A DNA stretch of 64,000 bases from Dechloromonas sp. TW-R-39-2 (GTDB lineage: Bacteria; Pseudomonadota; Gammaproteobacteria; Burkholderiales; Rhodocyclaceae): the NCBI RefSeq assembly GCF_016864195.1, contig NZ_CP045202.1, positions 2,325,001 through 2,389,000 on the forward strand, given 5' to 3'. Below the pieces are notes generated by a model. It did no database searches and was not told the origin of the DNA. It worked only from the letters and a program-made list of their open reading frames with translations. Positions 773-28,025 of the stretch are shown in pieces. Every line of letters begins with the position of its first letter. Within the stretch, counting starts at the first letter, position 1. The translations under genes and the position numbers were made by a program.

Positions 773-1856
773 GATGTTCCAGCACTCCTGCTACAAGAAT
801 ACTTGAAATCCCCCACAAAACCAGACCGATCAAAAACGTACCCAATATAATCTGCAATCTTTTGGGTTCAACAGCCTTATCGGGAATCTGGGCTTTGGAT
901 ATCACTTCAAGATACAGCTGCTTTTTTTGCGCCTCATATCTCGCCTGCTCTAAATAGTTCAACGCACTTACAAGAAGACGTTCAGAAAACTCTTTTTCAA
1001 GCAACAGTCGATGATAGGTAACAGCCTTTCCAGATAGTGATCGCTCCCCACCTGTAACCCGTTCTGTTTCGGAAGAAATCTCAGCCTCCAAAAACGCTAT
1101 TCTCTGTTTTATGCTTGGAATTTGAGGATTAGAGCTTGCCAACTTCTGCAAGCTAGACAATTGCGCTTTTGCTGCGACTAAATCATCTTGTAATTTACCG
1201 ATTTGCTGAAGAGGGATTTGAGACTGTTTCTCTGGATCCAATACACCCTTTTCCTTACGATACGCTGCCAAAGCAATTGATGCGTCTTTAGCTTTTTTTT
1301 CAGCATTTTCAACTTCATCGTAAGCAAATTTAATCGCATCTTGCTGGGCTCTATAATTAATCTTATTCACCAACTGCTCGGCCAATTCAACTAATTTGTC
1401 ATTGATTGCTCTAGCCTCCTCAGCTGTAAAAGCCTTAACATATAACGTACTAATAGAAGAGGTTGAGTCCAACTTTAAATTTATCTTTTTCTCGAAATAC
1501 TCGTAAAAAGACTCCAGTCCATCATCCCTTCCAAAACTAGCAAATCGACTTAGATACTCAGCATTGCTCGACGAATAGGAAGCCCTAACTTTTAAATCGT
1601 CATCTAATAACTTAAGCGCATCACGTGAGGTGATGTAGTCCTGCACCACATAAGAATCATCTTGGGCTTTTGAAATCCCGGCCCCTTTCAAAAAAACCCC
1701 TAAAGGAGAAGAGTTTTCCTTGCTTGGACTGCGAACAACAAATCGCGACTCAGAGACATATAAATCCGAGGCAACAAAACCAAAATATACTATTGAAACT
1801 AGCGTTGGCAATATCGTCGTTGCCACCAACAAGCGATCTTTAAAAAAACGCTTCAT
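762..1856 (-). CDS. kpsE: Capsule polysaccharide export inner-membrane protein, KpsE/BexC/CtrB-like
   Basis: This 364-residue protein has one membrane segment near the N-terminus (about residues 8-28), then the motif YVSESRFVVRSP typical of KpsE/BexC/CtrB polysaccharide co-polymerases. A long charged, helical and probably coiled-coil periplasmic region (about 150-320) follows, and a second membrane segment lies near the C-terminus (about 336-357). Proteins of this family bridge the KpsMT ABC transporter to the outer-membrane channel. It lies 119 bp downstream of the oxoamine synthase gene and overlaps kpsM. Codon use and base composition are AT-rich, unlike the synthase genes, so the export genes may have a different history. 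Confidence 0.88.
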   Translation of the reverse strand: MKRFFKDRLLVATTILPTLVSIVYFGFVASDLYVSESRFVVRSPSKENSSPLGVFLKGAGISKAQDDSYVVQDYITSRDALKLLDDDLKVRASYSSSNAEYLSRFASFGRDDGLESFYEYFEKKINLKLDSTSSISTLYVKAFTAEEARAINDKLVELAEQLVNKINYRAQQDAIKFAYDEVENAEKKAKDASIALAAYRKEKGVLDPEKQSQIPLQQIGKLQDDLVAAKAQLSSLQKLASSNPQIPSIKQRIAFLEAEISSETERVTGGERSLSGKAVTYHRLLLEKEFSERLLVSALNYLEQARYEAQKKQLYLEVISKAQIPDKAVEPKRLQIILGTFLIGLVLWGISSILVAGVLEHHDH

Positions 1857-1975
1857 AAAAATTTACCTATTAAATTCTCAATCAAAACTCACCATATCGA
1901 AACCATCAAACCTTATTTCTGATATGCTGCTTATCTATTTTTCAAAAAAACATAAATCGCATCACGCAATGGCAA

Positions 1976-9200: not shown

Positions 9201-10905
9201 CCCACTGGGCACCATTTCCCGAATAGACAAAGGCAACATCCCCTTCGGATGGCAGCGCGTCTTCAACCGTGATGCCGGCAGGTGACTCACCGGCCGCGTA
9301 GCGCTGAAGAAGCTTGACCGCTGCATCGACCGAATCGGGCATGCATGCGAGGCGCTTCTCCATACGCTCACGGTGGAAAACCGAGGCATAGGCGATGTCG
9401 TAATAGTCCTCTGCTGATTTTCCACTCAGCAACTCTGCATAACGTCGAGCCATAGCGCGCAACGCCGCATCCGTGCGTGCCGAGAGAACGAGCGGCGGCA
9501 AGGAAATATCCTTTGCAACGTCACGCGATTCATCAACGGAGGGGACAAACTCCTGGAGCAGCACGTGCGCATTGGCACCACCAAACCCGAAGGAGTTGAT
9601 GCCAGCGGTGAGCGGCTTATCGTTCTCTTTTGTTAGCGGCTTGTAATCGGTAACAAGTTCGAGATTCAGCTTCTTGAAATCGATGCGCGGATTTGGCGTA
9701 TGCAAGTGGAGCGATGGGGGCAACGCGCGGTTCTTGAGGGCAACCACCGTTTTGACCAAACCCGCCAAGCCGGATGCCGGCTCAAGGTGCCCCAGGTTTG
9801 CCTTCACCGAACCAATCGGCAAGGGCTTGACGCGGCCTTGACCATAGACAGCACCGATCGCAGCCGTCTCGATGGGGTCGCCCGCGGATGTTCCGGTTCC
9901 GTGCGCCTCGACAAAGTCGATATCGCCAGCAGCCAAGCCGCTACGAGCCAAGACTTTGCGCATCAGTTCCGCCTGGCCTTCGCTGCTGGGGATGGTGATG
10001 CCTGTTTTGCGAGCGCCATCAGCATTGACACCACTGGCCAGAATCACGCCATGGATTTGATCCCCTGAAGCCAATGCGTCATCGAGCGGCTTCAACAACA
10101 GTACAACACCACCTTCGGCCCGCACGTAACCGTCTCCGGCAGCATCGAAGGATTTACAGCGGCCATCAGCGGAAAGCATTGATGCTTTGGTGAACCCGAT
10201 GAATGGCTGGGGGTGCAATAGCAGATTGACCCCACCGACCAGCGCACTGGATGCTTCGCCATTGCGCAGGCTATTGCAGGCGTGATGGAGAGCGACCAGA
10301 GAAGACGAGCACGCCGTATCGACAGCCAGCGAGGGGCCGTGCAGATCGAAAATGTACGAGAGACGATTGGCGGCAATACTCAGCGTGTTGCCCGTCATGG
10401 AGTGCGACGTAAGGACCGAGAGGTCGTCCGCCCCCCGCATGCCGTAATCGAACCCAGAAATTCCTATATAGACCGCGCAATTGGTGCCAGCCAATGACGA
10501 AGGCGGCACACCCGCATTCTCCATGGCCTCCCAGGACAGCTCGAGGAGCAATCGCTGCTGGGGGTCTAAAAGCGCAGCCTCACGGGGCGAAATGCCGAAA
10601 AACCCCGCGTCGAACTCGTCAATGCGCGACAGAACCCCCGCCGAAAACGTAATGCTACGCCCCGGCTCGGATCGCTTGTCATGCTGCAACTCAGCAGTCG
10701 CCCAGCGATCCTCGGGAATTTGGGTGACCAGATCGCGTCGCTCTAGCAACGCGCGCCAGAATTCATCTTCCTCACCTAGATCACCGGGCAAGCGAAAAGA
10801 CAAACCGGTGATCGCGATAGGCATCCCTACATCAAGCCGCGCCACCAATGCATCCCTCGCAGGATCAATTTCCTGACACATCCTTGTTATATTTTTTTTT
10901 GACAA
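3292..10905 (-). CDS. rkpA: Fully reducing type I polyketide/fatty-acid synthase, RkpA-like
   Basis: This is a single 2537-residue multidomain synthase. The order is ketosynthase (about 30-450, active Cys199 in DTACSSS), acyltransferase (about 550-870, Ser649 in GHSVGE), dehydratase (about 915-1200, His952 in HRVAGAIVYPG and Asp1115), a methyltransferase-like region (about 1370-1600) that looks degenerate, enoylreductase (about 1760-2070, GAAGGVG), ketoreductase (about 2115-2300, Tyr2286) and carrier protein (Ser2450 in LGLDSL). There is no thioesterase, so release probably uses the coupled oxoamine synthase. The predicted product is a saturated chain, as for rhizobial RkpA in capsule production. 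The start is uncertain: the listed start is TTG, an in-frame ATG lies at 10881, and a run of nine A residues lies between them. Confidence 0.87.
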   Translation of the reverse strand: MSKKNITRMCQEIDPARDALVARLDVGMPIAITGLSFRLPGDLGEEDEFWRALLERRDLVTQIPEDRWATAELQHDKRSEPGRSITFSAGVLSRIDEFDAGFFGISPREAALLDPQQRLLLELSWEAMENAGVPPSSLAGTNCAVYIGISGFDYGMRGADDLSVLTSHSMTGNTLSIAANRLSYIFDLHGPSLAVDTACSSSLVALHHACNSLRNGEASSALVGGVNLLLHPQPFIGFTKASMLSADGRCKSFDAAGDGYVRAEGGVVLLLKPLDDALASGDQIHGVILASGVNADGARKTGITIPSSEGQAELMRKVLARSGLAAGDIDFVEAHGTGTSAGDPIETAAIGAVYGQGRVKPLPIGSVKANLGHLEPASGLAGLVKTVVALKNRALPPSLHLHTPNPRIDFKKLNLELVTDYKPLTKENDKPLTAGINSFGFGGANAHVLLQEFVPSVDESRDVAKDISLPPLVLSARTDAALRAMARRYAELLSGKSAEDYYDIAYASVFHRERMEKRLACMPDSVDAAVKLLQRYAAGESPAGITVEDALPSEGDVAFVYSGNGAQWVGMGQVLMLESPRFAELLAEVDNVMQPLVGFSVITELQADHAAARIDDTTVAQPLLFAIQVAITTLLKEAGIAPAATTGHSVGEIAAAWAAGALDLEQAIHVIVARSQAQGLTRGTGRMAAVGMSAEAVGQLIAELGNASDVEIAGINSPGNVTLSGSLEALHKIQNMVETRGGFFRLLDLDYAFHSRQMEPARADLAQRLEGFKPAGQENAFFVSTVTGDILDGAQLDAEYWWRNVREPVRFADAVGRLAKLGCRVFVEISPHAILQRYISECLTAAATKGRVISTLRRNDDGQERVTEAALRIQLLAEQPAWQSYFPHLGRQVRLPNYPWQRERHWHSTTSEGLLSIQRHRVHPLLGWRMHGADAAWENVLDPIAQPWLADHRVAGAIVYPGAAYIEMALGAAREYFGGETQELEELDIVAPIVFDGDHARSIRLDLSLRDGSFQIRSRQRLSDDEWALNASGRLLGAVSGYVAGESAAIADGEATVDRQTHYRLAHELGLDYGPLFQGMAQANLVGSSLEGRFESQVDLNLEDESWLLHPAIVDVCFQSLLDFFQSEIEAGLGLPLLPVKVGRLRLLGKQPIGAFRTRILRRSLRSVLAEFELLSVDGTKVAVLENCRFRAASLRQDGRQVPACWEIRPVVQPGALAAATAALPEVHTLVQQLKEWFVDCEDDLRRNAYFGEAQPLFDALVSAFASEAMQALLAAKPTEAGSWLDETVIVNDEHRSILAWVRDLLLEQSYLARDEEAWRLTNSDLPPAEEIWRTLLAEYPEAMPELILVGRMGHALLPMLAGDLAPSALAANLRCSHQFETLFDDSITYRGSRLAVEQLLEALARGGPANRQLRVLEIAAGLSEVPRQLGHRVPTDSIDYVLAHGDAEACDHLRHEYQDDEWISVAELEISPPALKAKCSLPACYDVVVFRHSLNSVADHRAMLVWAKANLANGGLLVLAERHADLAADLVWGAGRLAAPQAWQIELETLGFDEVELCREPAGEGSPAGAYLLLAKAPATAAAETTPDTARWLLLAGDAPAAELAQSLQQIMVTRGQVAVGIEIGEHLRSQQTAAALLADLKSEFDGAIDRVLLIAGDHGRDDTSLPADALNLVQALTGLAQAPQLGFVTRGGVPVDGLLDAHNCNPAHAALWGFGRVVMNEYPILACRLIDLPQQDKIPLPSLGELLVDELLHPDGESEVVLQSANRHALRMFHTHLTAPRQDTGDARHFRLDFRVPGQLRNLLWLEQPVRELAADEIEVRPVATGLNFRDIMYVMGLLPDEAVEHGFAGASLGLEFSGIVTRVGHRVDEFVPGDAVMGFGSACFASHVVTRANAVTPKPEGWSFEAAATVPTAFFTVYYALRQLANLQPGERVLIHGAAGGVGIAAVQLARHLGAEVFATAGSDEKRQFVALLGADHVFDSRSLAYGEQILAATGGEGVDVVLNSLAGEAIRRNLQVLRPFGRFLELGKRDFFENTPIGLRPFKDNISYFGIDADQLLISRPDLAGRLFREVMALFRSGVLTPLPVRAFPAERVVDAFRYMQQAKQIGKVVVSFEGARLVPQAIQPQHPRIEFAGDGAYLVTGGISGFGLETARWLARHGAGQLVLLSRRGASTPGGEEAVASLRALGAQVLVLACDVADRASLAEALRHPDILPLKGVFHAAMVIDDALMANLDPERMDRVLVPKIKGSWNLHELTHTLPLDHFMLYSSVTTFIGNPGQANYVAGNAWLEGLAVLRRAEGLPVTCIGWGPIGDAGYLTRNQVVKDSLASRLGAEPLSAEGALRMLGLALAAPQSNVAIADFQFSALARLLPSAQGPRFNSLRRHGADASAGAESLDDFKAMIEGKSSSEVQALVAQLVTQEVAQILAVSAERIDPARSLHDLGLDSLMGVELALSLEKRFGIQVPAMLLNEGPTVERVTARILERLTTTDSTDDDASNLAATAHGMAAQHGEAVSQEIIDAALADIQKKQTSA

Positions 10906-12555: not shown

Positions 12556-13880
12556 CAGTAGTGTCCGGTTAAAACGCACCCCATGAGCCTGAAACCAAGA
12601 ACTGGAGGGACTTTCGGCGACTTTTTTCCTGTCCCCGATTTGAACGGCGATTTGCCGATCGGGCAGTCTGTCGGCTTTGAATTCGCCGGAGACGCCGATG
12701 AATCTCGGCAAGACACTGTTCGCCCAACTCATGGATTTCCTGCCATGGAAGACTTTTCATCGCATTGTCGATCGCCACGACGGCGATCGCTACGTCAAGT
12801 CGATGACCTGCGCCGAGCAATTCCGTGTGATGGCCTTCGCGCAACTGACCTACCGCGAAAGCCTGCGCGACATCGAGGTCTGTCTCTCGGCGCAGTCGGC
12901 CAAGCTTTACCACATGGGATTTCGGCAGGAGATCAAGCGTTCGACGCTGGCCGATGCCAACGAGGCGAGAGACTGGCGTGTTCATGCAGCCTTCGCTCAA
13001 CATCTGATCAACCAAGCCAGAAAGCTCTACACCGGCGACAGTCTGGGCTTCGAGTTGGAGAACACGGCGTACGCGCTCGACTCGACGACCATCGATCTTT
13101 CCTTGTCGCTGTTTCCGTGGGCGCCGTTTCGCACGACCAAGGCGGCGGTGAAAATGCACACGCTGCTCGATCTGCGCGGCAGCATTCCCAGCTTCATCCA
13201 CATCTCGAACGGCAAGCTGCACGACGTCAATGTGCTCGACCTTCTGGTGCCGGAAGCGGGCGCAATCTACGTCATGGATCGCGGCTACTTGGACTTCGCT
13301 CGGCTGTACGCCATGGATCAGGCCAGCGCTTTCTTCGTAACCCGCGCCAAATCGAACATGGATGCTCGGCGAATCTATTCCGCAACCACCGACCGAAGCA
13401 CGGGGATCATTTGCGACCAGACGATCGGCCTCAACGGCTACAAGACCGGCAAGGACTACCCGGCGCATCTGCGACGCATCCGTTTCAGGGATACCGAGTC
13501 CGGCAAGACGCTGGTGTTCCTGACAAACAACTTCGCGCTGCCGGCAGCCACTATCTGCGCGCTCTACAAGAGCCGCTGGCAGGTCGAGTTGTTTTTCAAG
13601 TGGATCAAGCAGCATCTTCGTATCAAGAAGTTCTACAGCACGTCGGAGAATGCGGTGAAGTCGCAAATCTGGATTGCCGTGTCGGTCTATGTCCTCGTTG
13701 CTATCGTAAAGAAGCGGCTGAACCTCGACGCTTCGCTCTACACTTTGCTACAGATTTTTTCGCTCACCCTGTTCGAGAAGATGCCCATCCAGCAAGCCTT
13801 TGCGGGCGGCAGCTACACTTCAGAACCGATCGGCGATTGCAACCAATTGAATCTATTCGCGTTTTAACCGGACACCACTG
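12556..13880 (+). mobile_element. IS4-family insertion sequence with perfect 9-bp target duplication
   Basis: The element is 1325 bp. Its left end reads CAGTAGTGTCCGGTTAAAAC and its right end, on the other strand, CAGTGGTGTCCGGTTAAAAC, so the terminal repeats differ at one position over 20 bases. The 9-bp sequence AGGGCCGAT flanks it on both sides (12547-12555 and 13881-13889), as expected of a recent single insertion. It encodes one intact DDE transposase. The insertion split an AGGGCCGATATATGTCC motif that belongs to a repeat family of the island. Confidence 0.93.
12698..13867 (+). CDS. IS4-family DDE transposase
   Basis: I place the start at the ATG at 12698 (MNLGKTLFAQLMDFLP), which has GGAG eight bases upstream, giving 389 residues. 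The N-terminal part resembles the DUF4372-type domain of this IS group. Catalytic landmarks are ALDSTTIDLS for the first Asp, YVMDRGYLDF for the second, and the IS4 signature Y-(2)-R-(3)-E-(6)-K in YKSRWQVELFFKWIK. The frame is uninterrupted and ends 13 bp before the right end of the element, so the enzyme is probably active. Confidence 0.93.
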   Translation: MNLGKTLFAQLMDFLPWKTFHRIVDRHDGDRYVKSMTCAEQFRVMAFAQLTYRESLRDIEVCLSAQSAKLYHMGFRQEIKRSTLADANEARDWRVHAAFAQHLINQARKLYTGDSLGFELENTAYALDSTTIDLSLSLFPWAPFRTTKAAVKMHTLLDLRGSIPSFIHISNGKLHDVNVLDLLVPEAGAIYVMDRGYLDFARLYAMDQASAFFVTRAKSNMDARRIYSATTDRSTGIICDQTIGLNGYKTGKDYPAHLRRIRFRDTESGKTLVFLTNNFALPAATICALYKSRWQVELFFKWIKQHLRIKKFYSTSENAVKSQIWIAVSVYVLVAIVKKRLNLDASLYTLLQIFSLTLFEKMPIQQAFAGGSYTSEPIGDCNQLNLFAF

Positions 13881-13995
13881 AGGGCCGATATATGTCCTAA
13901 CCTTCGGACATGTTTGACGACACCAACCTCGCATCCGACAACGCCAGCAAACCAGGGCCGATATATCGGACATATATCGGCCCTGTTTGACGACA
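13881..13995. repeat. Duplicated palindromic unit with TGTTTGACGACA direct repeats
   Basis: Two related units lie 73 bp apart. Unit one (from 13881) reads AGGGCCGATATATGTCC, an inverted pair ATGTCC/GGACAT (13892-13897, 13906-13911), then TGTTTGACGACA (13911-13922). Unit two has perfect 12-bp arms AGGGCCGATATA (13954-13965) and its complement (13973-13984), then the same TGTTTGACGACA (13984-13995). The duplication of palindrome plus 12-bp direct repeat suggests a protein-binding array. No gene overlaps it. Confidence 0.7.
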
Positions 13996-17827: not shown

Positions 17828-19570
17828 TTAGCTCAGTCGCTTTTCACATGCGGGGATCGGGATCTTCACCTTTGCTACTGGATGATCTCCAGCGAGCTTC
17901 AGAAAACCACGCAAAGCCGGCAGTGTTTCGATTTCGGATGGCAGAACCAGCTTTTCTATCGCCCGCCGTTCCGCTTCCGACTTCGACGGGTCGCCGCCCA
18001 GGCCGAACAGGCCCCGCCGGCTGCGACTCTGCTCCTGGCGGATGCGCTCCTGGTCACCGATGGCCTTGGCGCACCATTCCGCCGTCTCGGGGTCGCCGGC
18101 TGCCAGGTACAGCTTCGTGTTCAGGCAGCTGAGGAGCACCGTTGCACCGTCGCGGCCGTAGGTCGTCCACAACTGAGCCACTGATTGCACGCCCCACAAA
18201 ATCTTGCCGTTGTAGCGGCGCAGCTTAGAGACGCCATCTGCGGCGCTGGGCACTTGGCCAAGGCTAGAGAATTCATCTGCGACGAACCACGTTGGCGGTG
18301 GAACGTTTTTATCGTCACTGATCGTTTGTGAGATCGCGCTTTTCAGCCAGGTCGCCAGCAGCTGCCGCATGACTCGGACGTTGCCGTCTGTGTAGCGCAT
18401 GAACAGCCACTGCCCAGGCGGTGCGGTGCGAACCCACTCCCGAAGCGAAAAGTTGCCTTGGTCGTCGAGGGTTTGCCAACCTGACAGGGCAGTGCCCAGC
18501 ACTGAGCGGACGCTCACCAACAACCTATCGGCATCGTCGGCGGTAAATACGGCCGCAGGCGTATTGGCCACAATCGGGGCCATTTCTTCACGACTGGCCA
18601 CACAGCAAACATGCAGCAGGCGGCTAACGGAGTGTTCTCCGCTGTTGTAGAGGCTCCTCATCACCTCGGCCAGCAACACTCTGGCCATGTCCACCCACTG
18701 TTGATTCTCGCCAGGGCTGTCCGGGATGGCGTTCGCGGCCATCTCGGCGAAGTCCGTCGCCCGGCGGATTTCACAGAAAGGATTCCATTTGGCAGTCGCC
18801 CAGGTCTCGCCAGGGGCGAGAACCACATCGCCTTTCCGGAAAAATCGCTGCATGGCGGCGCCGCCGATATCGGCGACGATCCCACGATCGCCCCGGCGGC
18901 GGGCATCGAGGATGACACCATAGATGGCCATGGATTTGCCGCTGCCGGTTGTGCCGAAAACGCAAGTGTGCCGCCCTTCGGCTTCTCGGGGGATGGGGAT
19001 GCCGCCGAGGTGCACCTGGGCGGGCCTTGGCTTGGCGCTGACGCGCTCGGCCACGATGAATACAACCAGGCCAAGGGCACAGCCAACAGGCACGGCCAAG
19101 GCGCTCTTAAACATCAACAGGCCAGACAACGAAAAAAACACGGCATAGACCCCGCCCAGCAGGACGGCTTTCTTGTTTTCTCGCCACCACAGCTCACGCC
19201 TTAACAGAAGCGCAGTGACCAGCCTTGCCCCTCGAATGCGGCCTTCTTTCCCGCTTCCGGCCAGCGCGGGAAGCAAAGCGGTAGCGGCCGTCAGTAGAAG
19301 CGACAATCCCACCGAAAACAGGACGCCGTTGAAGATTTTCGTTTCAATCTCTGGGTCATAGTTTTGCAGTTGGCGCTGGAGTAAAACCTCCTTTTCTGTT
19401 CCCGAAAAATCAACTAGGGCGCGCGCCATCGAGCTTACATACGCGGCGCGCAGCTGGGTTTCTGGCCAGCGCTTTTCCTGCCAGTCTGGCGACCAGACAA
19501 GGTTATAACCGGCGACGGAAAAAGACAGGACTGCCACCACCAACAACAGGATTTTTTTGATGCTTCCCAT
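17828..19570 (-). CDS. Type IV coupling protein, TrwB/TraD-like
   Basis: The 580-residue protein has N-terminal membrane segments (about 5-22, and further hydrophobic stretches about 80-100 and 135-175). A hexameric ATPase domain follows, with Walker A GTTGSGKS (Lys212) and Walker B TWFVADEFSSLG. This is the architecture of coupling proteins that bring the relaxase-DNA complex to a type IV secretion channel. It starts within the stop of the RHH gene upstream (TAATG), giving the order trwA-trwB-trwC known from plasmid R388. No secretion channel genes are in the window, so it would need a channel from elsewhere or from beyond the window. Confidence 0.9.
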   Translation of the reverse strand: MGSIKKILLLVVAVLSFSVAGYNLVWSPDWQEKRWPETQLRAAYVSSMARALVDFSGTEKEVLLQRQLQNYDPEIETKIFNGVLFSVGLSLLLTAATALLPALAGSGKEGRIRGARLVTALLLRRELWWRENKKAVLLGGVYAVFFSLSGLLMFKSALAVPVGCALGLVVFIVAERVSAKPRPAQVHLGGIPIPREAEGRHTCVFGTTGSGKSMAIYGVILDARRRGDRGIVADIGGAAMQRFFRKGDVVLAPGETWATAKWNPFCEIRRATDFAEMAANAIPDSPGENQQWVDMARVLLAEVMRSLYNSGEHSVSRLLHVCCVASREEMAPIVANTPAAVFTADDADRLLVSVRSVLGTALSGWQTLDDQGNFSLREWVRTAPPGQWLFMRYTDGNVRVMRQLLATWLKSAISQTISDDKNVPPPTWFVADEFSSLGQVPSAADGVSKLRRYNGKILWGVQSVAQLWTTYGRDGATVLLSCLNTKLYLAAGDPETAEWCAKAIGDQERIRQEQSRSRRGLFGLGGDPSKSEAERRAIEKLVLPSEIETLPALRGFLKLAGDHPVAKVKIPIPACEKRLS

Positions 19571-20037
19571 TACTCACCTCCGAGCAGTTCGGCCAACTGG
19601 GCGTTGGCTTTTTCACGTGCGATTCGGATGTGCACCCCAGCCGGTTTTTGGGGGGTGCCCGGCATTTCGGCGGTGATGATTTGTGCACTTAACGCAGCTG
19701 AAAACAGGGCTTCGCCGAACAGCAGCCGGGCGGGTTTTTCAGGAATAAAAACGCCTTCGGGGAGCGCTCCAGCAGAGGGTTTTTCAACGCTCAGATGTTT
19801 TTCTATGAGGCCCAACTGAGCACTGATCTTCCTCAGTTCCTCTGCTCCCCCGGTCCCGGATTGCAGGTTATTTTTGATCGCCAAAAGCTGCTGCTCGATC
19901 GTGATTTTCTCGGCCCCGCGTTGCGCCATTTCGGCAAAATTTGCTGCTAGAGAGCGCCCATTTTCGGCGCTAAATTGCCGCAGTTGACGCTCTAAACTTG
20001 TCGAAATAGGGACGCTCAAACGGTTGGTTTTGCTCAT
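19570..20037 (-). CDS. TrwA-like ribbon-helix-helix accessory protein of conjugative relaxosome
   Basis: The 155-residue protein begins with a basic, short beta-strand-like segment (RLSVPISTSLERQLRQFSAENGRSL) typical of ribbon-helix-helix DNA-binding proteins. A helical middle and a less conserved tail follow. Position supports the call: it is the first gene of a unit running into the coupling protein and then the relaxase, as TrwA does in R388, and the oriT candidate lies directly upstream. TrwA binds oriT, represses its own promoter and stimulates nicking. The ribosome binding site CAGGAGAAA lies about 7 bp before the ATG. The family call rests on context and the N-terminus. Confidence 0.68.
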   Translation of the reverse strand: MSKTNRLSVPISTSLERQLRQFSAENGRSLAANFAEMAQRGAEKITIEQQLLAIKNNLQSGTGGAEELRKISAQLGLIEKHLSVEKPSAGALPEGVFIPEKPARLLFGEALFSAALSAQIITAEMPGTPQKPAGVHIRIAREKANAQLAELLGGE

Positions 20038-20082
20038 GGTTTTTCTCCTGGTTGGGCATCGAAACTCGACGCCTTACCGACC

Positions 20083-20101
20083 TATGTACGTAGCGCGAAC
20101 C
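20083..20101. repeat. 19-bp box, copy C (upstream of trwA-like gene, edge of oriT)
   Basis: TATGTACGTAGCGCGAACC on the plus strand, the most divergent copy but with the same outer blocks. It lies 46-64 bp upstream of the TrwA-like start and next to the hairpin cluster. A TrwA-like repressor is the obvious candidate ligand. Confidence 0.7.
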
Positions 20102-20156
20102 GTGCTGCGCGGGTTTTCAGGTGCGAAGCACGGTTTTCCGGCCTTGGCTGGGAGGG

Positions 20157-20337
20157 TTGCCGCACTTGTGCGGCAAACGGTGCCGCACCAGATGCGGCAC
20201 GGCCAAGCCTTGCGCAGCAAGGCGTTACCGCCCGAAGGGCGGCGGATGTGCAGCCCATAGGGCTGCGTGGTGTGTGATGCCTGACGCTTGCGGCAGGCAT
20301 TGTGCCTTTTGCTGGGGGTCTGGGGGCTCGCCCCCAG
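20157..20337 (+). other. Origin of transfer (oriT) candidate with seven hairpins
   Basis: Seven perfect or near-perfect inverted repeats lie in 181 bp: 20157-20176 (TTGCCGCA arms), 20180-20200 (GTGCCGCA), 20207-20223 (GCCTTGC), 20228-20242 (CCGCCC), 20250-20266 (GCAGCCC), 20278-20299 (TGCCTG) and 20320-20337 (CTGGGGG). The first two share the arm TGCCGCA. The cluster lies immediately upstream of the mobilisation operon, where MobF systems keep oriT. The fifth hairpin is followed by an F-like nic sequence. Confidence 0.8.
20250..20280 (+). other. Predicted nic site (F-like) at 20275/20276
   Basis: The hairpin GCAGCCC-ATA-GGGCTGC is followed directly by GTGGTGTGTGATGC. In plasmid F (from memory) a hairpin ending in TTGC is followed by GTGGGGTGT/GGTGC. 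The match is 12 of 14 bases with the same hairpin-to-nic distance. Cleavage would fall between T20275 and G20276 on the plus strand. Transfer would then lead toward higher coordinates, so the mobilisation genes enter last, as usual. Confidence 0.75.
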
Positions 20338-20438
20338 GTTGAGCTTGCAAGGCCAACTGCCTTACGCTTCTCAGGATCAACCAACGGGAGATCAGCGCGC
20401 AGCTGGTGGCTGACGAAGGTCAGTTAGTCAATGGCTTA

Positions 20439-21346
20439 GAACCGCTAACAAAATGATCAAGGTCGCTTGAGCTGCCGCCAGCAAATGATGCAGCAGGCGA
20501 TCTTGATAAAGGCTTCGTGGATGATGGCTAGGCGCTCGAATCGAACGCGCAGTCGCCGGAAGTTGTGCAGCCAACTGATCGTTCGTTCAACGACCCAGCG
20601 GGTTTTGCCCAGGCCGCTCCCGTGCAGCGTATTGCGCCGTGCAATCAGGGTACGGATTCCTTGCGCATGAAGCGGGCGACGATACTTGTCGTGGTCGTAC
20701 CCACGGTCGGCCTGAATGATTCTGGGTTTGCTTAACGGTCGTCCCGGCAAACCACGGATGGGAGGAATGGCCGCCACCAACGGCAGCAACTGGGTTACGT
20801 CGTTGCGATTGGCCCCGGTCAGGATGACCGCGAGCGGGATGCCCTGGGCTTCGGTGATGAGATGGTGCTTGGAGCCTGGACGAGCGCGGTCGGTGGGATT
20901 CGGTCCTGTTTTTGACCGGCGCCCACGGCACGAATGGAAGCGGAATCGACAATGCAGCGCGACCAGTCAATCCGGTCGGCAAGGCGCAGTTGTGCCAGCA
21001 GCAAAGCGTGCAAACGGTCCCAGACCCCGGCTTCCTGCCAGGCCCGAAGCCGTCGCCAGCAACTCATGCCAGAACCACAACCCAGTTCCTTGGGCAGCAT
21101 TTCCCAGGGAATGCCGCTCTGGAGCACAAACAAAATCCCCGCCAGAACCGCACGATCATCCAGTGGCAAGCGTCCTGGATACTTGGCTCGGCGCGGCTTG
21201 GGCGGCGGCAAGAGCGGGGCGATCAGCGCCCACAACTCGTCATCGAGAATCGATTTATCCATTTCCTCTGCCCAAAAAAAAGCGCAGAGGTTAACCAAAT
21301 TCAGCCGCTGTGAACAGAGGGAAAGGCTTCTTTTTGTTAGCGGTTC
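20439..21346 (-). mobile_element. IS5-family insertion sequence (two-frame transposase type)
   Basis: The terminal inverted repeats are GAACCGCTAACAAAA at the left end and its complement at the right end. TTA flanks both ends (20436-20438 and 21347-21349) as a 3-bp target duplication. The 908-bp length and two-frame transposase fit the IS427-type branch of IS5. It lies between oriT and the toxin-antitoxin pair. Confidence 0.88.
20457..21262 (-). CDS. IS5-family transposase, read across a -1 frameshift
   Basis: Frame one starts at 21262 (MDKSILDDELW, after AGAGG) and carries the N-terminal domain and the first Asp in IVDSASIRA. After GAGQK it departs from the family sequence. The family continuation (TGPNPTDRARPG onward) is in the -1 frame, which then gives IIQADRGYDHDKYR and the C-terminal part with ERTISWLHNFRRLRVRFE. 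The switch falls at CAAAAAC near 20915. Across the shift the total is about 268 residues, a normal length. Many IS5 elements use programmed frameshifting at A-rich runs, so this may be functional; a plain mutation or a sequencing error is the alternative. Confidence 0.82.
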
Positions 21347-21409
21347 TTACTGGTTTGCCCGCCATAAAGCGGGCAAAGCCGAAGTCCAAGTCGGAGGCTA
21401 TCGGTCTTC

Positions 21410-21673
21410 TCAGGTGTGCCACAGGCGCAGCATGTAGACGGTCGATTCCTGAATCTCATAGCGCATCTCGTAGTGCCCAATGAGCAATCGCCTGACCTCA
21501 CGCGGCTCGAACTCGAAGAGTTGCTCACCAATCCGAGGATTGGTGAGCAGGATGGTCGGGCCCTTGGTCAACGCCTGCACCGTCCGCACGGCGGCCTGCT
21601 TATTCGCCGGGCCCAGAAATTCGTACAAGCGTACCAAGTCGGAAAGCGCCTTGCTGGACCACTTTAGTTCCAT
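21410..21673 (-). CDS. ParE/RelE-family toxin
   Basis: The 87-residue protein has the layout of ParE/RelE superfamily toxins. It starts MELKWSSKALSDLVRLYEFL (strand, then first helix), has a central P-R-I-G-E segment (NPRIGEQLFEF), and ends with strands REVRRLLIGHYEMRYEI and TVYMLRLWHT. ParE toxins poison gyrase and RelE toxins cleave mRNA; the sequence does not separate these, although the linked RHH antitoxin favours the ParE type. Its ATG overlaps the antitoxin stop by one base (TGATG). Such pairs stabilise mobile elements. A hairpin of TTTGCCCGC and its complement (21354-21377) lies just downstream. Confidence 0.85.
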   Translation of the reverse strand: MELKWSSKALSDLVRLYEFLGPANKQAAVRTVQALTKGPTILLTNPRIGEQLFEFEPREVRRLLIGHYEMRYEIQESTVYMLRLWHT

Positions 21674-21945
21674 CAGCGCGGCACCGGCAGCGGTTCATCT
21701 GTTCCCAGACTATCGGCCCATGCCTGTACGGACTGATGATCGATAACATGGCCAGCCTCCACGTCGGCAAGGGCCTCTCGGGTCAGTCGCTCTCGCTCTT
21801 CTTCCTGAGACAGCCAGGCCGACAGTGCCTGTTTCATGATCCAGCCGCGGGAGCGCTCCAAGCGCTCAGCCATCTGGTCGACTTTATCGGCCAGAGGAAG
21901 CGGGACATGGGCAGTGAGAACCTTGGTTGATATAGCTTGAGTCAT
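21673..21945 (-). CDS. Ribbon-helix-helix antitoxin (ParD/CopG-like)
   Basis: I start at 21945 (MTQAISTKVLTAHVP), 90 residues. The N-terminal segment TKVLTAHVPLPLADKVDQMAERLERSRGWIMKQALSAWL is a typical ribbon-helix-helix DNA-binding domain, and the acidic tail would wrap the toxin. It is translationally coupled to the ParE-like toxin. By analogy the antitoxin, with the toxin, would repress this promoter. The IS66 element has inserted with its 8-bp target duplication only 41 bp upstream of this start, so the native promoter may be disturbed and transcription may now depend on the IS end. Confidence 0.83.
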   Translation of the reverse strand: MTQAISTKVLTAHVPLPLADKVDQMAERLERSRGWIMKQALSAWLSQEEERERLTREALADVEAGHVIDHQSVQAWADSLGTDEPLPVPR

Positions 21946-22106
21946 ACAGCATCCAAACTGATTAGTTTTTAATAACAAAGATTAGACTTCAATCGTAAGC
22001 GCCCGGCCAACCCATCTAATGGGATGGTCGCCCCTACTTGAAACGGCATCAGAAGTGCCAAAGTGTGGCGAATGGAAATTCCCACCCAGCAAGAGAGGCG
22101 ACCGAA

Positions 22107-23135
22107 ATGAAGCTTACGACGATTGGCATCGATCTGGCAAAAAACGTATTCCAGGTTCATGGCGTGGATGAACGGGGCAAAGCCGTCCTGAAGAAACAAC
22201 TGAAGCGGGAGCAGATGGCAGCGTTCTTCGCCAACCTGGCGCCGTGCCTGATCGGCATGGAAGCCTGCGGCAGCGCACATTTTTGGGCGAACAAGCTGCA
22301 AGCGATGGGGCATACCGTCAAATTGATGGCGCCGCAATTTGTGAAGCCCTACGTCAAGACGAACAAAAATGATGCAGCGGATGCGGAGGCGATCTGTGAA
22401 GCGGTGAGCCGGCCAAACATGCGTTTTGTGCCGATCAAGCAGGCCGAGCAGCAGGCTGTACTCGCGCTGCATCGGGCTCGCCAAGGCTTCGTCAAAGCGA
22501 GGACAGCCCAGGCAAATCAGATTCGCGGCCTGCTGGCCGAGTACGGCATCATCATTCCCCAGGGCATTGCGCACATCGGCAAGCGTCTGCCGGAGATCCT
22601 CGAAGACGGCGAGAATGGCTTGCCCGGCGTCTTTCGTCAGCTAATTGCCCGTCTGGGAGACCACCTCAAGGAACTGGATCGGCAGGCCCAGGAGCTGGAA
22701 GGTCAAATCCAGGTCTGGCATAGCGAGAATGCCGCCAGTCGAAAGCTCGCGCAGATACCAGGGATTGGTCCGATTACAGCCAGTGCGCTGGTGGCATCCA
22801 TCGGCAATGCCCGGAACTTCGAAAATGGCCGACAACTGGCAGCCTGGCTCGGGTTGGTGCCACGGCAGAACTCCAGCGGCGGCAAGCAGACCCTGCTGGG
22901 GATCAGCAAACGGGGCGATACCTATATGCGGACACTCTTGATCCACGGAGCGCGCGCCGTCATTCGGGTAGCCGAACGCAAGGCAGCCCACGCCGGGAGC
23001 TGGCTGGCAGGAGTGATGGGGCGACGCAACAAGAATGTGGCTGCTGTGGCCCTGGCGAACAAGAATGCCCGGATTGTCTGGGCGCTCCTGGCCCAGGATC
23101 GGGACTACAAAGCGGATTACGGATTGACGGCATAA
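22107..23135 (+). CDS. IS110-family DEDD transposase/recombinase
   Basis: I start at 22107 (MKLTTIGIDLAKNVFQVHG) because GAGAGGCGA precedes it, giving 342 residues. The N-terminal RuvC-like DEDD domain shows GIDLAKNVFQVHGVD, then KNDAADAEAICEA. The C-terminal Transposase_20 domain shows IPGIGPITASALVASIG and LGLVPRQNSSGGKQTLLG, with the conserved serine region in that stretch. These enzymes recombine with the help of a structured RNA from the element's own non-coding end. The frame is intact. Confidence 0.93.
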   Translation: MKLTTIGIDLAKNVFQVHGVDERGKAVLKKQLKREQMAAFFANLAPCLIGMEACGSAHFWANKLQAMGHTVKLMAPQFVKPYVKTNKNDAADAEAICEAVSRPNMRFVPIKQAEQQAVLALHRARQGFVKARTAQANQIRGLLAEYGIIIPQGIAHIGKRLPEILEDGENGLPGVFRQLIARLGDHLKELDRQAQELEGQIQVWHSENAASRKLAQIPGIGPITASALVASIGNARNFENGRQLAAWLGLVPRQNSSGGKQTLLGISKRGDTYMRTLLIHGARAVIRVAERKAAHAGSWLAGVMGRRNKNVAAVALANKNARIVWALLAQDRDYKADYGLTA

Positions 23136-23540: not shown

Positions 23541-23918
23541 ATGGAAATCCAGAAGCCAGGCCGGCGCAGGCGACATCATCCAGAGGAGTTCAAGCAGGCG
23601 GTGATTGCTGCGTGTTGCGAGCCGGGCGCCTCTGTCGCCGGCATTGCAATGGCCAACGGCGTCAATGCGAACCAGGTCCGGCGGTGGATGCGTGAGCGCG
23701 GTATTGAACCACCGACGCGGCGCCAACCAATGCCCGTCGTGCTCGAAACAGCGCCGGCGATCGCGCCTGCCTTCGTACAGTTGCCGATTGCCCCTGCGAT
23801 GCCGGCATTGGGGGATATCCGGATCGAAGTCCGGCGCGGCAACACCGCGATCAAGGTGGATTGGCCGGTTCAAGCATCAGGCGATTGCGCCACCTGGTTG
23901 CGCGACTGGCTGCGATGA
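23541..23918 (+). CDS. tnpA: IS66-family accessory protein TnpA
   Basis: The 125-residue protein has a helix-turn-helix near the N-terminus (HPEEFKQAVIAACCEPGASVAGIAMANGVNANQVRRW, broken here only by its loop), the form seen in IS66 OrfA/TnpA. A proline-rich linker and a C-terminal segment VRRGNTAIKVDWP follow. Its stop overlaps the tnpB start by 4 bp (ATGA). TnpA is needed for IS66 transposition together with TnpB and TnpC, although its biochemical role is unclear. Confidence 0.9.
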   Translation: MEIQKPGRRRRHHPEEFKQAVIAACCEPGASVAGIAMANGVNANQVRRWMRERGIEPPTRRQPMPVVLETAPAIAPAFVQLPIAPAMPALGDIRIEVRRGNTAIKVDWPVQASGDCATWLRDWLR

Positions 23919-24244
23919 TCCGGGTCGATGCCTTGTGGCTTTCGACCCGGCCGCTGGACATGCGGGCGGGAACGGAAACTATCCTGGCTCAGGTCGTCCA
24001 GATCTTCGGTGAAGCAAAGCCACACCATGCCTACCTCTTTGCCAACCAACGCGGTAGCCGGTTGAAGGTGCTGGTGCATGACGGTTACGGCGTTTGGCTA
24101 GCGAACCGTCGTCTGAATCAAGGGCGGTTTCAACTCCGGCCAAGCGATGGCAGCGTGGCGCTCACCCGGGGGCAATTCGATGCCCTGATTCTGGGCCTAC
24201 CCTGGGAACGGCTGGCCGATGGTGGCGTGATCCGGATTCTGTGA
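23915..24244 (+). CDS. tnpB: IS66-family accessory protein TnpB (Orf2-like)
   Basis: The start at 23915 gives MIRVDALWLSTRPLDMRAG, the standard opening of the IS66 Orf2 family, with 109 residues. Conserved features include HHAYLFANQRGSRLKVLVHDGYGVWLANRRL as a near-continuous family block. This is not the RNA-guided TnpB of IS200/IS605 elements despite the name. It is coupled to tnpA and lies 25 bp before tnpC. Confidence 0.92.
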   Translation: MIRVDALWLSTRPLDMRAGTETILAQVVQIFGEAKPHHAYLFANQRGSRLKVLVHDGYGVWLANRRLNQGRFQLRPSDGSVALTRGQFDALILGLPWERLADGGVIRIL

Positions 24245-24269
24245 CGGTCCACCAGTAGGGAAGTCCACG

Positions 24270-25808
24270 ATGACCGGCGGGGGCGCTGGCTGGCATCATC
24301 CCCGGATGTCGCTTCCCGCCAATATCGATCAACTCAGCGCCGATGAATTGCGCCGCCTGCTCGTTGAGCAAGACCGGGAACTCAACTGGCGCCAAGTGAA
24401 GATCGACAAGCTGACGCATGAAGTGGCGTACTACAAACGCCATTACTTCGGCGTCAAGGCGGAACGCTTGCCGGTTGAGCAGGGACAACTGTTCGAAGAA
24501 ACCCTCGCAGCCGACATGGCGGCCATGACCGAAGAGCTGGCACAGCTTTCGGAAACGAAGCCCAAGGGACAAGCGAAGCGCAAACCTTTGCCGCCGGAGT
24601 TGCCGCGCACCGAGATTCACCACGACCCGGAGTCGACCACCCGCGCCTGCGGCTGCCAGATGAAGCGCATCGGCGAAGATGTTGCCGAGAAACTGGATTA
24701 CATGCCGGGAACCTTTACGGTTGAGCGCCACATCCGTGGCAAGTGGGCCTGTACCGAATGCGAAACCCTGGTGCAGGCACCGGTGCCGGCCCATGTGATC
24801 GACAAGGGTATCCCGACCACCGGTCTGCTTGCGCATGTGCTGATCGCCAAGTATCTCGATCACCTGCCGCTGTATCGTCAGGAAGGCATCTTCGGCCGGG
24901 CCGGCTTGCCGATTCCGCAATCGACGCTGGCTGAATGGGTCGGCCAGATGGGGGTTGCCCTGCAACCGCTGGTCGATGCCCTGAAAGCCGAGATGCTCAC
25001 CTACCCGGTGCTGCATGCCGACGAAACGCCGGTGGCGATGCTCGATCCCGGGGCCGGCAAGACCCATCGGGCTTATCTGTGGTCCTACAGCATCGGCGCT
25101 TTCGAGCCGGTCAAGGCGGTGGTCCATGACTTTGCCGACAGCCGGGCGGGTAAACATGCCCGAGAATTCCTCGGCAACTGGCGCGGTACGCTGGTTTGCG
25201 ACGACTACTCGGGGTACAAGGCCCTGATCGCTGACGGCGTGACCGAAGCGGGTTGCATGGCGCATGCGCGCCGGAAATTCTTCGACCTGCATGCCAACAA
25301 CCAGAGCCAGATTGCGGGGCTGGCGCTGGCCACCATTCAGAAGCTCTACCAGGTCGAGCGGGAAGTCGCCGACCTGAGCCCGGACGAACGACGACGAATA
25401 CGCCAGGAGCAGGCCAAGCCGATTCTGGATGAATTCCATGACTGGCTGAGCCGGCACCGATTGCAGGTGCCCAACGGGTCATCGACGGCTAAAGCGATCG
25501 ATTACAGCCTCAAACGCTGGACGGCGCTCGCCCATTACCTCGGCAATGGCCAGGTACCGATCGACAACAACTGGATCGAGAACCGAATCCGGCCCATCGC
25601 CACGGGCCGGAAGAACTGGCTATTTGCCGGCAGCCTGCGTGCCGGCAAACGGGCGGCCGCCATCATGAGCCTGATCCAGTCGGCCAAGCTGAACGGCCAT
25701 GATCCCTTCCTCTATCTCAAGGACATCCTCTCTCGCTTGCCGACTCAGCCCAACAGCAGAATCGGCGAACTGCTGCCGCATCGCTGGCAGCCTGAAATCT
25801 CGGCCTGA
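24270..25808 (+). CDS. tnpC: IS66-family transposase TnpC
   Basis: The 512-residue DDE transposase has an N-terminal coiled-coil/leucine-rich region, a zinc-finger-like part (ACGCQMKRIGEDV and WACTECETL), and a catalytic domain with LHADETPVAML, VCDDYSGYKAL and the C-terminal NNWIENRIRPIATGRKNW, which carries the final acidic residue. A second ATG at 24306 (MSLPANID) could be the true start, but the first has a better ribosome binding site (AGGGAAG). The stop is 34 bp before the IS end. All three IS66 genes are intact despite the nested element. Confidence 0.93.
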   Translation: MTGGGAGWHHPRMSLPANIDQLSADELRRLLVEQDRELNWRQVKIDKLTHEVAYYKRHYFGVKAERLPVEQGQLFEETLAADMAAMTEELAQLSETKPKGQAKRKPLPPELPRTEIHHDPESTTRACGCQMKRIGEDVAEKLDYMPGTFTVERHIRGKWACTECETLVQAPVPAHVIDKGIPTTGLLAHVLIAKYLDHLPLYRQEGIFGRAGLPIPQSTLAEWVGQMGVALQPLVDALKAEMLTYPVLHADETPVAMLDPGAGKTHRAYLWSYSIGAFEPVKAVVHDFADSRAGKHAREFLGNWRGTLVCDDYSGYKALIADGVTEAGCMAHARRKFFDLHANNQSQIAGLALATIQKLYQVEREVADLSPDERRRIRQEQAKPILDEFHDWLSRHRLQVPNGSSTAKAIDYSLKRWTALAHYLGNGQVPIDNNWIENRIRPIATGRKNWLFAGSLRAGKRAAAIMSLIQSAKLNGHDPFLYLKDILSRLPTQPNSRIGELLPHRWQPEISA

Positions 25809-25921: not shown

Positions 25922-26860
25922 TCAGTTTGACGCGAGCGAAATGCCTTTCCATGGCCCATGGCGCAGCTGATATATCTCCGCTGCGGCTTGGTCACTCACA
26001 ACCTCCCCTCTCCTTATACTCACCTCACCTCCCCTCTCCTGGGAGACAACCCTTTGATTTTCTGGTATTTTTATTTTTCTCAGTTTGCACTCTTGAGAAA
26101 ATATTCGAAAAATCAATGGACTGATGATCTGCTCAGCCTCCTCAAATATTTTTTTGGCATCTCTTGCTTTGGCGCAACGGAGCCTCGACGCAATAAAAAT
26201 TTCTCCAGTGGCAGCATCAGAAGCAGCGGCCCCCCTCCCCTGCAAGCTGGCCAGGACCTCTGCGAAAGTTGTGGCCGGCACGGACGCAAGGTCGGCAAGC
26301 CCGTCTAGCCAACCACCTGGCCTGAAAACGCCCGACGCGGTCTGGTCCGGGTTGGCTGCCAAGACAAAGGCAGCGAGCATTTCCGTCGCTGACCACTGCT
26401 GGCCAGGTCCCCGCGGAGGCAGCGCGGTCAGAAGATTTGAGTAGAGCAGAACCGACGGCACGCGTGGTCCACCCAAATACCTTTCCAAATCCGCCCGGAT
26501 TGCCTCAGCAACCCTGGAATCACGCACGCCAGCAAGGGCGGTGCGCACCTGACGAGCCCATGGTGTCACCTCTTCCTCGGCCGGGCTGCGATGCCAAGAA
26601 AACGACCCACACAGGTATGCCTCACAGGTGTTCTGGCTGACAACTGCCAGGCCACGCTGGTCGAGGTCGGTCAGAATTCCCCAAATCACATCGACCGGCA
26701 AAGGCAAACCCCGGCACGAATAGGGGGTGGGTGCAAAAAGTAGGCAGGGGGTCAGGGAGTGATGGTTCGCAAGAACCACAACCATCAGTTTGTGCTCGGC
26801 TGGCAACGCCCAAATACCAGGCCGATTCAAAAGATCAGGGGGGAAAAGTATTTTTTCCAT
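25922..26860 (-). CDS. Island protein of unknown function, 312 residues (possible replication-type protein)
   Basis: I do not recognise this family. The N-terminal 110 residues (MEKILFPPDLLNRPGIWALP, then alternating helices and a SRGLPLP-like turn) look like a winged-helix fold. The middle has LLYSNLLTALPPRGPGQQWSA and many alanines. The C-terminus is basic and polar. It is the last gene of a tight three-gene operon (1-3 bp gaps) that begins with an AlpA-like regulator and has 10-bp-phased repeats upstream. That layout would suit a replication initiator of an integrative element, but this is inference only. Confidence 0.55.
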   Translation of the reverse strand: MEKILFPPDLLNRPGIWALPAEHKLMVVVLANHHSLTPCLLFAPTPYSCRGLPLPVDVIWGILTDLDQRGLAVVSQNTCEAYLCGSFSWHRSPAEEEVTPWARQVRTALAGVRDSRVAEAIRADLERYLGGPRVPSVLLYSNLLTALPPRGPGQQWSATEMLAAFVLAANPDQTASGVFRPGGWLDGLADLASVPATTFAEVLASLQGRGAAASDAATGEIFIASRLRCAKARDAKKIFEEAEQIISPLIFRIFSQECKLRKIKIPENQRVVSQERGGEVSIRRGEVVSDQAAAEIYQLRHGPWKGISLASN

Positions 26861-26861: not shown

Positions 26862-27284
26862 TCACTCCCCCCCCGCCATGAAGAGGTCGCCCTGGCCGCG
26901 CTTGGCGGCGTCGCGCTGCCTCTTTAGGCGTTTCTGGGCAGCGCGCAGCCCCACCCCAAGGTCGGCAGCCACACCGGCAGCCACTGAGCCGCGACGTGCT
27001 TTTGGCCGGGGCATCTCGCCAGTTGGTGCAACAAATGCGTCGTCGTTTTCCGCCCGACGGGCGGTAACGTGAAGATCCTGCGAAACCCAGCCACGACCAA
27101 GGCGCCGAACGCCGACAGCTGCCGGCACGGCAGCGCTTGGATCTTGCCCAGCAAGCCAGGCGACTGCTACTTCCTGGCGAATATCGTCCATGCTAAGCCC
27201 AGAAGCCTGGGCAAGAGTATGGACAAGGGGCCCGTACTGGCTGAGGACCGCCTCGCAGTCCACCGGGTAGCCGTTCCTAGCCAT
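26862..27284 (-). CDS. Island protein with sigma-factor-region-2-like N-terminus
   Basis: The 140-residue protein has LVHTLAQASGLSMDDIRQEVAVAWLAG near its N-terminus, which resembles sigma-70 region 2 (helix, acidic D-D-I-x-Q-E). The C-terminal half contains ARRGSVAAGVAADLGVGLRAAQKRLKRQRD, which could be a helix-turn-helix. The protein is small for a sigma factor and is linked to no anti-sigma gene. It sits between the AlpA-like gene (3 bp upstream) and the unknown 312-residue gene (1 bp downstream). A regulatory or replication-accessory role is plausible. Confidence 0.5.
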   Translation of the reverse strand: MARNGYPVDCEAVLSQYGPLVHTLAQASGLSMDDIRQEVAVAWLAGQDPSAAVPAAVGVRRLGRGWVSQDLHVTARRAENDDAFVAPTGEMPRPKARRGSVAAGVAADLGVGLRAAQKRLKRQRDAAKRGQGDLFMAGGE

Positions 27285-27287
27285 GCG

Positions 27288-27575
27288 TCAGCCCCCCGCC
27301 GCGATCTTGCGAGGCCGACCCCGGCCTCGTTTTTCCACCTGCTGCTCAACTGGCGATGCCGCATTGGATGGATTGGATGGGGCTGACCCTGAAAAAACAA
27401 GCTCAAGATCGACGAGCCGGCAAACCCTCTTGCCGCCAAGCTCGACCACGGGCAGAGGGAAAGTGCCAGCCAAAATGCGGTTCGCTGTCGTTTTGGCTGA
27501 CCAGCCAAAAACGGCCTTGCCGGCCTCAGCCGGCGAAACGGCCACGCGGCCGGGAAAAACGGAATAAAAAGACAT
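27288..27575 (-). CDS. AlpA/excisionase-like small DNA-binding protein
   Basis: The start at 27575 (MSFYSVFPGRVAVSPAEAGK) has GGAG six bases upstream, giving 95 residues. The segment AGKAVFGWSAKTTANRILAGTFPLPVVELGGKRVCR resembles the winged helix of AlpA-type regulators, which read a P-L-P wing followed by R-V-x-x-V. A basic R-G-R-G-R-P-R-K AT-hook-like tail ends the protein. AlpA-like proteins commonly lie near the ends of integrative elements and control excision or operon expression. A 7-bp inverted repeat CAGCTCC/GGAGCTG (27578-27598) spans the leader beside the ribosome binding site. Confidence 0.6.
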   Translation of the reverse strand: MSFYSVFPGRVAVSPAEAGKAVFGWSAKTTANRILAGTFPLPVVELGGKRVCRLVDLELVFSGSAPSNPSNAASPVEQQVEKRGRGRPRKIAAGG

Positions 27576-27948: not shown

Positions 27949-28025
27949 TGGCGTGCCCGGAGGGACTCGAACCCCCGACCTGCTGCTTAGAAGGCAGCTG
28001 CTCTATCCAGTTGAGCTACGGGCAC
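27949..28025 (-). tRNA. tRNA-Arg (anticodon TCT)
   Basis: On the minus strand the acceptor stem GTGCCCG/CGGGCAC, D arm, anticodon loop CTTCTAA (anticodon TCT), T arm GGGGG-TTCGAGT-CCCTC, discriminator G and an encoded CCA (27949-27951) are all present. The 3' end faces the mobile island, the usual orientation for an integration site. Confidence 0.95.

Follow-up and report, generated by a model that had tools for sequence, protein, structure and literature searches.

The plasmid R388 (IncW) carries its mobilisation genes in the order trwA-trwB-trwC, with the origin of transfer (oriT) upstream of trwA, a stem followed by a 9-nt stretch, and a polarity by which the mobilisation genes are transferred last. 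Its nic site reads GTATTGTCT/AT, where C at base 8 goes with Lys262 of the relaxase TrwC, the residue that has been reported for R388 position 24 (PMC4176350). R46 (IncN), from which pKM101 is derived (PMC4853378), has the same gene order and GTGT before nic, within an F-like GGTGT; its site, placed by eye as GTTAGGTGT/ATAGC, is accompanied by Lys188 and Lys196 (residues are numbered as in pKM101 TraI unless stated otherwise). In F, a hairpin is followed by GTGGGGTGT/GGTGC, and the corresponding sequence of R100 is GTAGTGTGT/GGTGC; both plasmids have the gene order traM/traJ/traY and an F-type T4SS. Representative MOBF nic sites are aligned in Figure 5 of PMC4176350, according to which a purine is required after nic, a T21 to G21 change is present in pKM101 and F, and some MOBF plasmids have G at position 24. 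Published specificity work swapped residues between F and R100, namely Q193 and R201 of F (PMC3245843), and in the crystal structure of pKM101 TraI residues 188 and 196 contact bases 3 and 5 (PMC9868005).

The window analysed here (64,000 nt of Dechloromonas sp. TW-R-39-2, contig NZ_CP045202.1, positions 2,325,001 to 2,389,000) contains a locus with the gene order, oriT position and stem-to-nic length of R388 (Table 1). As in F, a hairpin is followed, at the same 9-nt spacing and with the same polarity, by a nic-like motif, which agrees with F's own record at 12 of 14 bases, as the earlier reading of this DNA had stated, and with R100 also at 12 of 14. Unlike R388, a self-transmissible plasmid with a VirB-type T4SS, and the conjugative plasmid R46, the locus belongs to a chromosomal island; unlike F and R100, its relaxase falls in another clade and comprises 902 aa, compared with 1756 aa for F TraI. 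Two Acinetobacter plasmids, p5729 and pAbPK1b, share with the window an identical 11-mer, GTGGTGTGT/GA, and the order of coupling protein and relaxase, but their relaxases lie in the clade of the Ptw plasmid and they are typed MPF_F. On the oriT parts, their conservation, a strand bias of the motif and the covariation of relaxase residues with nic bases, all of which are observed in the sequences, we read the locus as part of an integrative mobilisable element whose MOBF origin of transfer looks functional, with a probability of roughly 0.87; cleavage, excision and dependence on a helper are predicted properties.

Table 1. Features of the mobilisation locus and its surroundings (window positions)
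Feature	Position	Strand	Evidence
MOBF relaxase-helicase, 902 aa	15029..17737	-	Pfam TrwC 260 bits, AAA_30; NCBIfam MobF 266 bits
Coupling protein, TrwB/TraD type, 580 aa	17828..19570	-	Pfam TrwB_AAD_bind 311 bits
TrwA-like accessory gene, 155 aa; overlaps trwB by one base	19570..20037	-	Location and length; L032 copy at 85% identity
oriT region, array of short hairpins, from trwA to IS5-type insertion	20040..20435		Inferred boundaries
Second conserved hairpin in oriT, GCCTTGCGCAGCAAGGC	20207..20223	+	Identical in window, L032 and L090
Nic-proximal inverted repeat, GCAGCCC-ATA-GGGCTGC	20250..20266	+	Sequence, folding; identical in L032, another paired stem in L090
Nic motif GTGGTGTGT/GA, predicted cleavage 20275/20276	20267..20277	+	Motif scans, L032 conservation, relaxase residue match
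IS5-type insertion, leading region	20438..21347	-	Pfam DUF4096; IS5 model below cut-off; ends by eye
IS110 transposase	22110..23135	+	Profile match
IS66 unit (transposase 24270-25808)	23541..25808	+	Two small genes before the transposase by position
attR core, 3' end of tRNA-Arg(TCT)	27949..27995		47-bp attL partner outside the window

Mobilisation genes and the predicted nic site

The first-pass annotation had described a TrwA-TrwB-TrwC-type operon with a relaxase near TrwC in length. Profile matches bear out the coupling protein and the relaxase, whereas the trwA label comes from position and size and is tentative: TrwA accessory proteins are ribbon-helix-helix DNA-binding proteins, and the 155-aa protein found no notable counterpart in Pfam or the PDB and no match among plasmids. 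The 902 aa of the relaxase compare with 962 aa encoded by the 2889-bp gene of R388. Its NCBIfam MobF score stands against a cut-off of 100, three His residues align (H/H/H) with those of MOBF relaxases, and AAA_30 at residues 399-584 marks a C-terminal SF1-type helicase domain; the catalytic motif YYSRDDYY has a spacing of 4, compared with 5-6 in the YY-X(5-6)-YY definition. Among PDB sequences, the relaxase domain is best matched by TraI of pKM101/pCU1 and by TrwC (225 and 212 bits), compared with 139-140 bits for F-type TraI. In a midpoint-rooted tree of 41 relaxase domains, the protein groups with those of the survey loci L032, L090 and L091 (support 100/99), within a clade of 10 rows beside, and outside, a 15-row clade that contains pWW0 together with R388 and R46, the latter two standing for the MOBF11 subclade of R388 and pKM101; it lies outside the F/R100 clade, and thus outside MOBF12.

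Approximately 240 bp upstream of the operon, the sequence reads as a perfect 7-bp hairpin (20250-20256/20260-20266, loop ATA), with GTGGTGTGT/GATGC directly on its 3' side. The folding energy of the 29-nt strand is -8.4 kcal/mol (z -4.27) and was equalled by none of 200 shuffles. The 14-mer immediately after the hairpin, GTGGTGTGTGATGC (20267-20280), is by itself no more similar to F than chance allows: with up to two mismatches, the F 14-mer has one match in the window against 0.50 expected, and 39 of 100 shuffles contain at least one, so we discarded this match as a measure of significance. The combination of hairpin and motif is rarer than the 14-mer, and adding the hairpin alters this picture. 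Under a strict rule (hairpin score of at least 4.5, followed by [GA]TNNNGT[GC]T/R, with bases 3-5 free), the only matches on either strand of the 64-kb window are at 20267 and at 7043, the latter inside a polyketide synthase (PKS) gene. The site thus has a stem, 9 nt ending in GT[GC]T, a purine after nic and mobilisation genes that would enter last, and it looks like a genuine MOBF oriT of the ordinary kind. The second conserved hairpin is perhaps a target of an accessory protein or a structural element.

The closest locus found is that of D. agitata is5 (L032), whose relaxase is 97%, TrwA-like protein 85% and TrwB 54% identical to those of the window; unlike the window, L032 has no IS match at its oriT, and it carries its own integrase gene. 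A block of 37 nt, from upstream of the hairpin through GTGGTGTGTGA, is unchanged between the two, inside a segment (19437-20423) with an overall identity of 79%, and divergence begins directly after the block. L090, whose relaxase shares approximately 54% identity, retains the 9-nt motif behind a different stem and loop, GCAGCG-CTTG-CGCTGC. Compared with plasmids, the oriT DNA gave only weak matches to six records, covering at most 11% of the query. The coupling proteins (window 17828-19570, L032 6154-7896) are least alike over residues 40-200, where 30-48% of positions agree, and together with the low overall value this suggests that the coupling-protein gene may have undergone recombination.

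A survey of 52 loci (the window, L032, 40 genome loci in two groups of 20, and 10 plasmids) provided 51 with upstream sequence, all but L105. A strict match occurs on the strand that places the mobilisation genes last in 24 of the 51 and on the opposite strand in one, a descriptive comparison rather than a blind test, as the rule was shaped after early matches had been seen; dinucleotide shuffles of the survey gave a mean of 0.46 matching loci and a maximum of 3. F, R100, R388 and pWW0 were recovered with hairpin and motif in a single scan, R46 being placed by eye; the strict rule misses 27 of the 51 loci. In a second set of 25 loci (L146-L170), of which 23 were scanned (L163 and L165 lacked upstream sequence), there were five strict matches on the expected strand (L158, L161, L168, L169, L170) and two on the opposite one (L162, L167). 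Family f186 accounts for 14 of the 18 misses in this set, and 13-mers shared there pointed to no oriT; its members (L141, L143, L144, L146-L157 and L159) have TrwC-like relaxases with no strict nic match. In the loci with strict matches, trwB lies upstream of the relaxase gene on the same strand, with starts 1.7-2.6 kb apart; gene order in the genome loci was compared for these two genes.

Base 8 is G in 21 of the 24 strict matches, and C only in R388, L095 and L096. An F-like nic site together with the trwABC order, which had been thought unusual, is therefore ordinary, given also the GGTGT of R46/pKM101 and the remarks cited above (PMC4176350); among the sampled loci, it is the TGTCT of R388 that is the exception. 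The two other proposals made for the site fared better. A MOBF nic at 20275/20276 is supported, as a prediction, by the strand bias, by the conservation in L032 and L090 and by the fit to the relaxase residues described below, and the late entry of the mobilisation genes agrees with the polarity of F, R100, R388 and pWW0.

Covariation of relaxase residues with nic bases

Equivalent relaxase residues were listed starting from the contacts in the pKM101 TraI crystal, and the analysis covers 32 rows with a placed nic: 23 of the 24 first-survey matches, four of the five second-set matches (L161, L168, L169 and L170, all in agreement with the pattern), F, R100, Ptw, R46 and L091. Base 3 is G in all 18 rows with Gln188 and in none of the 14 others, and base 5 is G in all 17 rows with Arg196 and in two of the 15 others, L091 (placed by a relaxed rule) and R46 (placed by eye). 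Bases 3-5 are free in the strict pattern, so that in the 28 rows placed by it the covariation involves no circularity; F, R100, R46 and L091 were placed otherwise. Over 250 variable columns in 25 representatives with less than 75% identity, the best-scoring column is residue 188 for base 3 and residue 196 for base 5. Residue 262 is the top column for base 8 at a lower score, and residue 259 is another high scorer, for bases 3 and 4. Strong associations are confined to bases 3 and 5. In each protein's own numbering, residues 188, 196 and 262 correspond to F Q193, F R201 and TrwC K262.

Three matches were handled separately: L138, a strict match with a distant relaxase, stayed outside the 32 rows (its Arg188 and Lys196 with A3 and T5 would agree); L158 (ATCCTGTGT; Arg188, Met196) was omitted as doubtful; and a second match in L161 was not used. 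In 23 loci whose nic had not been placed, the base 3/5 class, one of six, was predicted from the relaxase. The expected strand gave eight hairpin-plus-motif matches. Five had the class predicted for them (L107, L140, pXAC64, L160 and L162) and three did not (L141 and two in L158, which were counted as wrong); the other strand gave three, none in the predicted class. The five loci were found by using the pattern at a lower hairpin threshold, L107 having fallen below the original one, and were kept outside the 32 rows.

At base 8, Lys262 accompanies C in all three rows that have it and is absent from the remaining 34. L140, near R388 in the tree, reads GTATTGTGT/ATAGC where R388 reads GTATTGTCT/ATAGC, and has Arg250 and Ala262 in place of Pro250 and Lys262. 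The pKM101 crystal places Arg250, not residue 262, on base 8 (PMC9868005), but Arg250 was rejected as the determinant: G is present in 21 of 21 rows with Arg and also in 8 of 11 without it, and residue 262 fits better. At base 1, all 33 rows with G have Arg or Lys at position 80 (TrwC R81), and the three rows with A, two of which were found by using the pattern, have Gln, Gln and Thr there; L091 (T1, Arg80) is the exception. Within one relaxase clade, L095 and L096 carry GTGGGGTCT with Leu250 and Lys262, and L097 and L108 carry GTGGGGTGT with Arg250 and Ala262.

It could be argued that shared ancestry, not direct recognition, has produced the covariation. The Fisher values for the associations ignore ancestry, phylogenetically independent pairs are few (five for Gln188, five for Arg196 and two for Lys262), and the high score of residue 259 for two bases is what common descent might also leave. 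On the tree, however, residue 188 and base 3 have each undergone at least five changes, all concordant; residue 196 has changed seven times and base 5 six times, with two discordant rows; and residue 262 and base 8 have each changed twice. The independent pairs are concordant in 5/5 cases for residue 188 (p 0.0625; 4/4 without the five loci placed late), in 3 to 4 of 5 for residue 196 with none opposite, and in 2/2 for residue 262, which is consistent with recognition, the pairs being too few for significance on their own. The first ranks of residues 188 and 196, their contacts in the crystal, their equivalence to F Q193/R201 and the joint difference between R388 and L140 at base 8 and at residues 250 and 262 likewise count against descent as the whole explanation, and we regard it as unlikely. 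Direct recognition is the reading that we favour, and on balance, if with some reserve, we propose a portable code in which nic bases 1, 3, 5 and 8 are dictated by the residues at positions 80, 188, 196 and 262 across F-like, R388-like and other clades, so that nic could be predicted from the relaxase and a hairpin.

The comparison suggests that the cut site of a MOBF relaxase is largely readable from a few of its amino acids. What is new here is the covariation across MOBF: the determinants F Q193/R201 and TrwC K262 were known before from work on one plasmid at a time, and they appear to be family-wide in the sampled MOBF loci. Among the open-licence PMC titles and abstract openings listed, none concerned a family-wide code of this kind. 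If the code is true, nic sites and possible cross-mobilisation would be predictable from sequence. The window site fits the pattern: its Arg73, Gln182, Lys190 and Ala254 (own numbering) occupy positions 80, 188, 196 and 262 and go with G1, G3, T5 and G8.

The pattern also suggests a candidate nic in the Ptw plasmid of Burkholderia cenocepacia (pBCJ2315), which resembles the window in its trwABC-like gene order and in a hairpin followed by ATGGTGTGT/GACG, and differs from it in its F-related T4SS. Its functional oriT was mapped to 65490-66190, where the authors report nothing like the R388 nic (PMC4853378). The predicted site, GCAAC-AAC-GTTGC ATGGTGTGT/GACGATC at 66047-66068, is the sole strict-pattern match on either strand of a 1.4-kb stretch; a looser pattern with 4-bp arms matches at 10 places there, the candidate included. 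The relaxase has Gln80, Gln188, Asn196 and Ala262, and the candidate nic has A1, G3, T5 and G8; base 1 and Gln80 set it apart from the window. Ptw is mobilised weakly by R388, at about 1e-7 (PMC4853378), which fits a site that would be a poor target for TrwC.

The island and its proposed transfer

The locus belongs to an island of approximately 45.2 kb at tRNA-Arg(TCT), with an integrase gene, att repeats, relaxase and oriT. The attL copy (47 bp, 98%) lies at genome positions 2307730-2307776 and is adjoined by a Phage_integrase gene (2307806-2308966). The right end of the island is placed at the 3' end of the tRNA gene (27949): in 30 genomes of the genus, 12 of the 16 matches listed above 600 bits begin at query positions 306-310, which is the end of the tRNA, three begin at 290-293 and one at 411. 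The absence of a T4SS of its own was judged by two ATPase families, PF03135 and PF11130, neither of which had a match in the genome, and this suggests that transfer would need a helper. The cargo comprises genes for capsule/polysaccharide synthesis and export, glycosyltransferases, an ABC transporter and a type I PKS besides the mobilisation module. The locus enlarges a well-known kind by one more member, a mobilisable island in the chromosome that carries surface-polysaccharide genes; the wider interest lies in the comparison of relaxases and nic sites.

The island could instead be immobile and its oriT a non-functional remnant, the conservation reflecting a recent common origin with the element of D. 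agitata. The IS insertions around oriT and the mobilisation genes, unmatched in L032, would suit such a history, as would the lack of matches to the two T4SS ATPase families. The IS5-type insertion begins approximately 160 bp past nic, however, and leaves the core oriT intact; the frames of the relaxase, coupling protein and integrase are all open; the 37-nt block is unchanged amid 79% identity; and L090 has kept the motif with another stem. We consider a remnant very unlikely, while the several IS elements do suggest an ageing island. That nic lies at one of the other strong hairpins of the region (e.g., 20207-20223 or 20277-20300), the F-like motif being incidental, is a suggestion that could draw on the chance-level 14-mer match and is highly unlikely, as 20250-20266 is the sole strict-rule match in the region, 20277-20300 differs in L032 and the residue pattern fits GTGGTGTGT.

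For a functional oriT, a feasible model is as follows. The integrase beside attL would excise the island from tRNA-Arg(TCT), and the TrwA-like protein, by homology, would help to expose the plus strand at oriT. The relaxase would then read the proximal hairpin arm and the nine unpaired bases GTGGTGTGT, cut at 20275/20276 by its first tyrosine and remain attached to the 5' end. From there the TrwB-type protein would pass the complex on to a helper present in the same cell, whose channel would carry out the transfer. Since the cut is on the plus strand, the 5' end would lead to the right and the mobilisation genes, on the left and on the minus strand, would enter last.

Several further observations concern the island and its surroundings. 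The cargo spans window positions 762-10905 and genome positions 2311290-2325772 (L179, L180). The PKS, a type I enzyme of 2537 aa, adjoins a gene resembling BioF/serine palmitoyltransferase (below curated cut-offs), and the pair possibly represents a surface-glycolipid pathway on the mobilisable island. At 12583-13881 (+), a 432-aa ORF without a Pfam or NCBIfam match appears by eye to be an IS4-type transposase with GTGTCCGGTTAAAACG-like inverted ends; its flanks match L032, which is without this ORF. A small gene pair at 21410-21978 (-) comprises a gene for an RHH_1 protein (39 bits in Pfam) and an 87-aa ORF resembling, by eye, a ParE/RelE toxin. Close to the island's right boundary, a 312-aa protein without a Pfam match is encoded at 25922-26860 (-), and the adjacent 26877-27297 is matched in L032. 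Tandem glycine riboswitch aptamers are located at 43673-43853 (+).
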